Assembly (NCBI GenBank): GCA_027624315.1
Contig: JAQBXX010000016.1
Span: forward strand, 1 to 34,548
Length of the DNA: 34,548 nt
Source: Pseudomonadota bacterium
GTDB lineage: Bacteria > Pseudomonadota > Gammaproteobacteria > SURF-13
Reading direction: 5' to 3'
Shown: in pieces, positions 4,201-9,730 of the stretch
How the letters are laid out: the number at the start of each line of letters is the position of its first letter
How positions within the stretch are numbered: the stretch's first letter is position 1
Made by a program: the position numbers and the translations under genes
The notes under the pieces: model-generated
Database searches by the model: none
The model's input: only the letters and a program-made list of their open reading frames with translations
Told to the model about the DNA's origin: nothing

Positions 4201-4776
4201 CAGATCCATCAGGCTGCCGCGCACGGCAAACTCGCCGTGCTCCATCACCTGCGACACGCAACGATAGCCGCTGGCCTCCAGCCGCGCGCGCATCGCGCCG
4301 AGGTCAATGCGCGCGCCGGTTTCGAGCAGCAGACTGTGCGCCTGCACGTACTCGCGCGGCGCGATGCGGTGCAGCAATGTCTCCACCGGCACGATCAGCA
4401 CGCCGCGTTCCAGCGCGGGGAGATGATAGAGCGCGGTCAGGCGTTGCGAGATGATGTCCTGATGCGGCGAGAAGGTGTCGTAAGGCAGCGTCTCCCAGTC
4501 GGGGAAGGTGAGTACCGGGAGACCTGCGTGTGTGCCGGTATAGAATAGCACCTCCTGTTCCAGGCGGTTTGCGTGCAAGGTGTCTTCGGTGATGACCAGC
4601 AACGGCCCGGAGTGACTCCGCGCCACCTCGCAGAGGGCGAGGCCGTAGCTGCTGCCGGAGAGCTGTGCCCAGCGCACGCACGCGCCCGCCTCCGCAGGGA
4701 GCGGCGGATGCAGCAGATTCAGCGCAGGAGCGGAATCTGCTGCTGCAGGAGGTGATGCCGGTAGCGGGTGGGCCAT
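1288..4776 (-). CDS. mfd: Mfd, transcription-repair coupling factor
   Basis: This 1162-residue DNA translocase removes RNA polymerase stalled at lesions and recruits UvrA for nucleotide excision repair. The N-terminal third is a UvrB-like module. The RNA-polymerase-interacting domain starts near residue 500 with VVHEDHGVGRYRGL. The RecG-like motor follows, with Walker A GDVGFGKTEVAMRAAF at about 640, the DEEH box (VILDEEHRFGVRQKERFK) at about 745, then TATPIPRTLSLSL and the helicase motif QLRGRIGRSHHSAYAYL. The C-terminal TRCF domain is present, so the protein is full length (E. coli Mfd is 1148 residues). It is transcribed away from clpS and is convergent with folD. The Shine-Dalgarno sequence before its ATG is weak. 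Confidence 0.98.
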   Translation of the reverse strand: MAHPLPASPPAAADSAPALNLLHPPLPAEAGACVRWAQLSGSSYGLALCEVARSHSGPLLVITEDTLHANRLEQEVLFYTGTHAGLPVLTFPDWETLPYDTFSPHQDIISQRLTALYHLPALERGVLIVPVETLLHRIAPREYVQAHSLLLETGARIDLGAMRARLEASGYRCVSQVMEHGEFAVRGSLMDLFPMGSELPYRIDLFDDNIDSLRTFDVETQRSLVTAPSIRLLPAREFPLNEEAIARFRRNFREQFEGDPQQSPLYRDVSKGLAPPGIEYYLPLFFSHTDTLLDYLPPASLVLTTAGVEQAAHAFWHSACERHEQRRHDRERPLLAPESIFVQPDALFAGLHAFPQVQLQHAPNPAASNFATGVPPELTLDGRAAQPAARLLEFLSAFSGRVLLAAETSGRRETLIDLLKQAGLRPALFADWPDFLAGAAPLGITVAPLEHGLLLPEARIAVIAETQLFGEQVLQRRRRKARTRDAEGLVRNLAELSLGSPVVHEDHGVGRYRGLQILDVGGLQTEFLTLEYAGGDKLYVPVASLHLISRYTGAAPEQAPWHKLGGEQWARAKRKAAERARDVAAELLEIHARRAAREGHAFTLDEHDYLAFAAAFPFEETPDQHDAIESVLADMRGGKPMDRLVCGDVGFGKTEVAMRAAFVAVQGGRQVAVLVPTTLLAQQHYQNFKDRFADWPVRIETISRFRSKKEQDAVIEGLADGAIDIVIGTHKLLQEGIAFKRLGLVILDEEHRFGVRQKERFKQLRAEVDVLTLTATPIPRTLSLSLAGLRDLSIIATPPARRIAVKTFVREWDKALIHEAVLREIKRGGQVYFLHNDVDTIEKMARDLAALVPDASVRVAHGQMRERELEQVMLDFYHQRFNLLVCSTIIESGIDVPSANTIIINRADKFGLAQLYQLRGRIGRSHHSAYAYLIIPERNAISADANKRLEAIESIQELGAGFTLATHDLEIRGAGELLGEDQSGQMQEIGFTLYAELLERAVASLKAGREPELDRPLDHGAEIDLRLPALIPDDYLPDVHARLMLYKRIASAATDDELRELQVEMIDRFGLLPEAAKNLFTLTGLKLKAQPRGIRKIEAGEGGARVIFNDHPAVDPGKIIALIQREPKVYKLDGQNKLRMIKPLSDATARIHAIEQLLQTLS

Positions 4777-8192: not shown

Positions 8193-8915
8193 CTATGGCT
8201 CATCCCCCGTGAGCCGCAGCCAGCGGTTGCGGCGGTACATCTCGAGCGGGCGATACTGCCCCTTGTAGCTCATCTTGCGGCACTCCTTGATCCAGTAGCC
8301 GAGGTACACCCACGGCAGTCCGAGGCGCTGCGCCTCGCGGATTTGCCACAGCACGGCATACACGCCCAGGCTGCGTGCGGCCTCCGCCGGATCGAAAAAA
8401 GTGTAGACAGAGGAGAGCCCCTGCGCCAGGTGATCGACCACCGCGACGGCGAGCAGACGCTGTGCATGGCGCTGTTCGCGGCGAAACTCATACAGGCGCG
8501 TGTCGATGCCGGGGGCGGAGAAGCATTCCAGGTATTGTTCCGGCGCCGGCTCACCCGCACGGTTTTCGCCGTGACGGTGAGCGAGATAACGCTGATAGAG
8601 CTGAAAGTGCTCCTCGTTATAAACGGCACCGACACAGCGCACGTCGAGGTCGTGATTGCGCTGCCATACGCGCTGGTGGCGGCGGCGCGGTTGAAATTCG
8701 CACACCGGCACGCGTACCGGAATGCAGGCGTCGCAGTTTGTGCAGTGCGGGCGGTACAGGTGGGCGCCGCTGCGCCGGAAGCCGTGGTCGATCAGTGTAT
8801 CGTAGAGTTGTGTGGTGACGGCGAGCGCAGGATCGGCGAACAGCGTGTTCGCGCTGCGCCCGGCGAGATAGGCGCAGGCGTGCGGCGGTGTCAGGTAAAA
8901 ATTGATATCGCTCAT
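8193..8915 (-). CDS. bpt: Bpt, aspartate/glutamate leucyltransferase (ATE-family)
   Basis: This 240-residue aminoacyl-tRNA-protein transferase of the ATE1/Bpt family is expected to add Leu from Leu-tRNA to N-terminal Asp or Glu, creating a ClpS degron. Visible features are the N-terminal cysteine-bearing segment [18 protein letters not shown], the charged helix [11 protein letters not shown], and the C-terminal GNAT-like half with [17 protein letters not shown]-like residues and [22 protein letters not shown]. Whether it donates Leu or Arg cannot be decided from sequence; bacterial members of this length are generally Bpt. Its ATG overlaps the aat stop as ATGA, so translation is probably coupled. 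E. coli has no Bpt, so this species has a broader N-degron code. Confidence 0.93.
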
Positions 8916-9730
8916 GGCGCCGGCGCATGCCAGGCATTTGCCGCCGGCGGGATATCACGCCAGAGTTGCAGCAGGCGGATGAATTCGCGGCGCGGCAGGT
9001 CCTCCGCACCCAGGCTGGCGAGATGTGCCGTGTGCATCTGACAGTCGACCAAGGCGTAATTCCACTCACGCAGACATGCGACCAGATGCGCCAGTGCCAC
9101 CTTGGAGGTATTGGCGCGCCGACTGAACATGGACTCGGCAAAGAACATGCTCCCCAGCGCCACACCGTAGAGGCCACCGACCATATCATCGCCGTGCCAG
9201 ACCTCCACGGAGTGCGCGTGGCCGAGATGATGCAACGCGCTGTAGGCTGCAACCATTTCCGGCGTAATCCACGTGCCCGCATCGTCTTTGCGCGGCGCGG
9301 CGCAGGCCTGCACCACCTCGGAAAAACAGGTATCGAACGTCACGCGATATTTTAATTCATGCCCCGCAGCTTGCTGCGGGCACAAAGCCTTGGGGTTTCC
9401 AAAGGGGAGAAGTGCAACTCTCCCCTTTGGTCGCCCGAGCGATTTCATATCGCGCGGTGCGAAATCAAATTGAGTCTGTAGCAGCAGCTTGCGCAGGCTG
9501 CGCGATATCCTGAAACGCTCCGGCAACAACACCGTGCGCGGATCGGGTGACCACCACAGCACGGGTTGGCCAGCGCTGTACCAAGGGAAGATGCCATTGC
9601 GGTAGGCCTCGATCAGACGCTGCGGCGTGAGATCGCCGCCGACCGCAAGCAGGCCGTCCGGGTCGCGCAGCGCCAACTCCACGTCGGGGAAGCCGGTGTC
9701 ATGCGCCTTTATCCAGTAAGGGTTGTTCAT
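8912..9730 (-). CDS. aat: Aat, leucyl/phenylalanyl-tRNA--protein transferase, with internal insertion
   Basis: Aat adds Leu or Phe to N-terminal Lys or Arg, making substrates for ClpS/ClpAP. Family signatures are [86 protein letters not shown] and [22 protein letters not shown]. At 272 residues it is about 38 longer than E. coli Aat (234). The excess lies in one place: between [14 protein letters not shown] and YRVTFD there are about 40 extra residues, encoded by nested palindromes (9343-9454), with the frame preserved. Insertion falls between the N-terminal domain and the GNAT-like catalytic core, so activity may survive. Six nt separate it from the upstream COG3146 gene, and it overlaps bpt by 4 nt. 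Confidence 0.95.
9343..9454. repeat. Palindromic element inserted in frame within aat
   Basis: Three nested or adjacent inverted repeats lie here. CGCGATAT (9343-9350) pairs with ATATCGCG (9447-9454). CCCGCAGC (9363-9370) pairs with GCTGCGGG (9373-9380). CCAAAGGGGAGA (9399-9410) pairs with TCTCCCCTTTGG (9419-9430) around an 8-nt loop. All of this is translated as an extra segment of Aat absent from E. coli Aat. It resembles in concept the Rickettsia palindromic elements that sit in frame within genes. Confidence 0.7.

Follow-up and report, generated by a model that had tools for sequence, protein, structure and literature searches.

Rickettsia palindromic elements (RPEs) are dispersed palindromic repeats of ~100-150 bp, some of which are translated in frame inside conserved proteins, and about half or more of their copies are located in ORFs (PMC10969869, in which in-frame repeats in the middle of ORFs are reviewed). 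In Coxiella burnetii, most copies of QMITE1 and QMITE2 are located outside genes or at gene ends, some are found in frame in the middle of ORFs for hypothetical proteins, and the changes that they cause to functional genes fall at the 3' ends (PMC5896051).

The window analysed here is a stretch of 34,548 nucleotides from G000, a draft gammaproteobacterial genome of 1.43 Mb in 53 contigs. Its aat gene contains a palindromic repeat within a single open frame. The features of the locus, listed along the gene, are as follows.

8912..9730, minus strand: aat, encoding leucyl/phenylalanyl-tRNA-protein transferase (Aat; 272 aa), with one open frame running through the insert.
9353..9472, minus strand: inserted repeat of 120 bp, corresponding to Aat residues 87-126 and delimited by the empty site in G002 and 28 other homologues.
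9459..9472, minus strand: 5' end of the element, CAATTTGATTTCGC, which is weakly similar to the inverted 3' end.
9431..9462, minus strand: hairpin 1 (from the fold), with a conserved UCGC/GCGA foot, a variable, covarying stem CCGnGCGA..UCGCnCGG and the loop AUGAA.
9399..9430, minus strand: hairpin 2 (from the fold and alignment conservation), with a 13-bp stem, CCAAAGGGGAGAG/CUUCUCCCCUUUGG, nearly invariant in sequence across the family.
9356..9386, minus strand: hairpin 3 (from the fold), GCCCGCAGC AA GCUGCGGGGC, with a covarying stem tip.
9353..9363, minus strand: 3' terminus of the repeat, GCATGAATTA (family form, GTATGAATTAA), from the alignment of copies and from junctions.

Pfam PF03588 (Leu_Phe_trans) matches Aat at 4.6e-72 in two separate stretches, and E. 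coli Aat structures cover residues 8-82 and 127-258 of the window protein, leaving the intervening block unmatched. The closest genome, G002, belongs to the same genus and encodes an Aat with 91% identity; this protein lacks the 40-aa block, which is located between KLLLQT and KYRVTFDTC in the window Aat. The aat site is empty both in G002 and in G001, the next congener, and the block is present in none of the 29 aligned Aat homologues (G002 included). An assembly chimera at aat is unlikely because both flanks of the insert are collinear with aat in G002. A covariance model of the repeat family matches the aat copy at 9352-9472 (7e-53).

A sequence-only reading of this DNA had described a single extra block in Aat coded by palindromic DNA, which is borne out by the homologue alignment and by the comparison of the fold with shuffled sequences, but had placed its ends at 9343-9454, whereas the empty site in G002 gives 9353-9472. 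An outer 8-bp stem had also been proposed (9343-9350/9447-9454); its arms are complementary, yet the left arm is ancestral aat sequence that is present at the empty site in G002 (ATATCGTG) and is thus not part of the element, and the other arm forms one side of the hairpin at 9431-9462, which that reading had overlooked. Both inner stems (8 bp at 9363-9370/9373-9380, and 9399-9410/9419-9430) are real. The block follows residue 86, in the loop that connects the ISRSL helix to the YRVT strand; a location between the domains, as had been thought, is not supported, and its computed position is ~20 residues beyond what we take to be the N-terminal domain of E. coli Aat. Aat is the N-end-rule transferase and is dispensable in E. 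coli; the description of aat as an essential-pathway-type gene is not supported, and tolerance of the insert is less surprising.

Folding of the aat element predicts three consecutive hairpins. The element strand folds better than its dinucleotide shuffles both as RNA (z -5.65) and as DNA (z -6.68), and the predicted RNA fold of the aat hairpins reaches -57.8 kcal/mol. In an alignment of 44 diverse copies, 94.5% of cells pair, a proportion that drops to 39-51% in slid structures, and 14 of the 24 consensus pairs show compensatory (both-side) changes; these values were attained in none of 500 shuffles. Hairpins 1 and 3 keep their pairing while their sequences vary: six of seven inner pairs of hairpin 1, and all pairs of helix 5, in hairpin 3, have changed on both sides across copies. 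With up to two mismatches, the 5' end CAATTTGATTTCGC was found at 21 places in G000, compared with two for the reversed control, and nearly all of its best genomic matches are at element copies. The similarity between the inverted termini (TCAATTTGAT and TTAATTCATA) is weak and imperfect.

A BLAST search of G000 with the aat unit identified 13 further places of at least 65 bp, and the genome contains ~16 copies and one fragment in total, with one additional match and the split long-type copies counted. The unit is not unique, and its recurrence in the genome, together with its absence from the Aat homologues, supports the earlier proposal of a mobile palindromic repeat read in frame as part of Aat. 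Sequence searches showed that the nearest genomes (G002-G005) carry the repeat, and the covariance model identified a single copy in G001; of 274 genomes sampled across the class, 25 contained copies. A core-pattern search of GTDB representatives yielded at least 113 stretches; among the matches listed, the MAGs labelled as Gammaproteobacteria included SURF_13, FK_Sedi_A_Bin.151, USCg_Taylor and Coxiellaceae SSA3, and those labelled as Deltaproteobacteria included B24D1T2 (dozens of copies) and RIFCSPLOWO2_12_FULL_60_19, this cross-phylum range being taken from MAG labels and open to inflation by binning error. No covariance model of Rfam matched any of six loci with copies (E up to 1), the repeat was not found in plasmid, phage or viral collections at the sensitivities used, and papers searched for the core motif as text returned unrelated matches only, with no description of the repeat. 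This widespread repeat family thus appears to be undescribed so far.

Long-type copies, which carry an extra hairpin-rich stretch of 70-75 bp between the arms of hairpin 2, were observed at L019/L011 (1487-1684) and L020/L024 (1319-1524), and the same form was also found in L044/L159 and L198. At L005 (~1607-1765; C25 of G000), a different multi-hairpin repeat adjoins the family copy, and parts of this repeat match at least 10 further places in G001 and G002.

When the flanks of 13 other G000 copies were compared with G002, two copies were shared and at least nine sites were empty or contiguous, including that of the long-type copy in L019, which is assigned by a contiguous match only, without an alignment. 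The family has therefore moved recently. Across the nine empty sites and 70 junctions no consistent target-site duplication was found; the junctions are A/T-rich and would allow for 0-3 bp. The repeat, at ~120 bp, is without coding capacity for a transposase, and a search for an autonomous parent in the loci examined revealed no transposase-sized gap between element halves, the only gaps being those of ~70-170 bp in long-type copies. No element was located within ~1.5 kb of the Y1 transposase genes examined, four in G000 and nine in relatives. The four Y1 (IS200/RAYT-like) genes of G000 are found in L326-L329 (C38, C41, C28 and C3, respectively), none of them flanked by the element, and repeats of the GGGTAGCGTCCCC type occur at the ends of the gene in L326. 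Together, the covarying, conserved hairpins and the lack of a clear target duplication would be compatible with movement via a folded single strand (Y1/HUH-type).

Of the 178 unique copies that had 300 bp of flanking sequence on each side, two are in frame inside a recognisable protein, namely the aat copy in G000 and a copy in a slt70 homologue of USCg_Taylor. The latter (L172, MUGK01000071, ~4420-4502) is missing hairpin 1, is oriented opposite to the aat copy and adds ~30 aa to a soluble lytic transglycosylase. In G000, every other copy is found between genes or at a gene border, with exact gene-border copies in L006, L013, L007, L008, L020, L012 and L265. Some border copies abut the downstream ATG, and others run up to 8 bp into the upstream gene, whose TGA stop is then drawn from CAATTTGA; the empty site of L007 in G002 is an overlapping TAATG stop/start. 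The rarity of in-frame landings fits selection that purges most gene-disrupting insertions and spares the rare harmless one. On average, 2.25 of six frames are open per copy, compared with 1.19 in letter-shuffled copies, an excess that palindromic composition may explain, and 7 of the 14 full G000 copies are open in the same frame as the aat copy. Long ORFs across L014, L194, L107 and L147 were rejected as genes, as they look like antisense or chance frames; L194, the sole one checked against Pfam, was unmatched.

Outside the insert, Aat shows a dN/dS of 0.18 against G002 (dS 0.26), and its core is under purifying selection; in this test, a gene that is still functional looks the same as one in which the insertion is too recent to show decay. 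The lineage-specific amino-acid changes in this part number six in G000 and five in G002, so the core shows no relaxation. In an AlphaFold2 model of the window Aat, the pLDDT is mostly >90 in the core and ~45 in the insert, and superposition of the model on E. coli Aat gives a TM-score of ~0.90 (target-normalised); the core is thus predicted to fold normally. Residues that are invariant across the family are retained in the alignment with the 29 homologues. Selection and the predicted fold together support a tolerated loop, short of proving activity, and we infer that the long Aat is made and active.

Very probably, the block represents a chance in-frame, stop-free landing of a MITE-like mobile repeat of three hairpins in aat, tolerated as a surface loop. 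On this account, a non-autonomous unit of ~120 bp entered aat after the split from G002. Insertions of this kind in or near genes usually persist only in non-coding DNA; at aat, the 120-bp unit is a multiple of three and has no stop in the reading frame of the gene, and the site corresponds to a surface loop of an enzyme that is not essential, so that the gene stayed open and its translation would be expected to yield a 40-residue disordered loop. The opposite outcome, in which the block has disrupted Aat and left a recent pseudogene or an inactive protein, is unlikely: the strong mRNA hairpins could slow translation, a 40-residue loop beside the domain boundary could harm activity, and aat is dispensable in E. 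coli, but the frame is open end to end, the family-invariant residues are kept, the low dN/dS is accompanied by equal lineage-specific change, and the core fold is predicted to be intact. That the block is removed or skipped, by excision from the RNA, cleavage of the message by RNase III or bypassing of the hairpins by ribosomes, is the least probable of the alternatives and close to negligible. The three strong hairpins of the coding strand speak for it, but no intron or other RNA family of Rfam is matched by the six loci searched; nothing demands removal of the block since it is in frame and stop-free, and removal is not a property of the family because most copies lie outside genes.

The remaining alternatives concern the family as a whole. 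A system resembling the RPEs, in which the repeat has evolved to enter coding genes and its encoded peptide to be tolerated there, would account for the stop-free, in-frame insertions between conserved blocks of both aat and the slt70 homologue and for the excess of open frames over shuffled copies, but is very improbable given that in-frame copies within recognisable genes are so few, that the remaining G000 copies all lie between genes or at gene borders, and that only half of the full G000 copies are open in the frame of the aat copy; moreover, the two coding cases use different strands and hence encode no common peptide. A second possibility is that the hairpins serve a function as RNA or DNA at gene borders (as a terminator, an mRNA stabiliser or a protein-binding site), where they are retained for their structure, and that aat received them by accident. 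The compensatory changes across genomes, the near-invariant hairpin 2 and the copies that abut stops and starts are consistent with this, but the individual sites are not conserved, because nine G000 copies have empty sites in G002, and the compensatory changes could equally reflect recognition by a mobilising enzyme; we regard it as rather doubtful. Somewhat better placed, although still tentative, is a reading in which selection would act on the three-hairpin structure itself in many families, and apparently in more than one phylum, with an enzyme recognising it as single-stranded DNA or RNA in folded form, a tendency to insert at stop/start borders and occasional new loops in conserved enzymes such as Aat and Slt70; the repeats might then form a new, broadly distributed class of mobile elements.

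The locus provides a clean case, dated by the empty site in an orthologue with 91% identity, in which selfish hairpin DNA outside Rickettsia became a loop of a conserved enzyme. Aat can readily be assayed in E. coli, so that what such an insertion costs is directly measurable. Beyond this locus, a strongly covarying repeat family has been uncovered in MAGs labelled as Gamma- and Deltaproteobacteria, and it is unnamed in the libraries searched.

Compared with known systems by description, the family resembles the RPEs in being a dispersed palindromic repeat (120 bp here) that would be translated in frame at aat, and to this extent the Rickettsia parallel drawn by the sequence-only reading stands. 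It does not extend to the behaviour of the family, in which 2 of 178 copies are in frame within a gene, as opposed to about half or more in ORFs for the RPEs; the present family is also found in Gammaproteobacteria and other MAGs, has no shared peptide frame and consists of three consecutive hairpins, the middle one of which is nearly invariant. The case is not the first of its kind in Gammaproteobacteria, because QMITE copies of Coxiella are known in frame in the middle of ORFs (PMC5896051). QMITE1 and QMITE2 are likewise MITE-like and mainly extragenic or at gene ends; again by description, the present repeat differs from them in interrupting a conserved enzyme internally and in spanning many families. 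With MITEs in general, including ERIC, it shares a short, non-autonomous, dispersed, recently mobile and mainly intergenic nature, but its terminal inverted repeats are weak, and neither a clear target duplication nor a parent transposon was found. As in REP/REPIN-RAYT systems, hairpin DNA repeats are present in multiple copies and the host encodes Y1 transposases; the unit here, however, is a 120-bp triple hairpin, and the examined Y1 genes are not flanked by copies. In-frame landings of repeats are thus known but rare, and what is new is the repeat family and a well-dated case in a conserved enzyme. The repeat is best filed as MITE-like, being Rickettsia-like at the aat locus and not overall.
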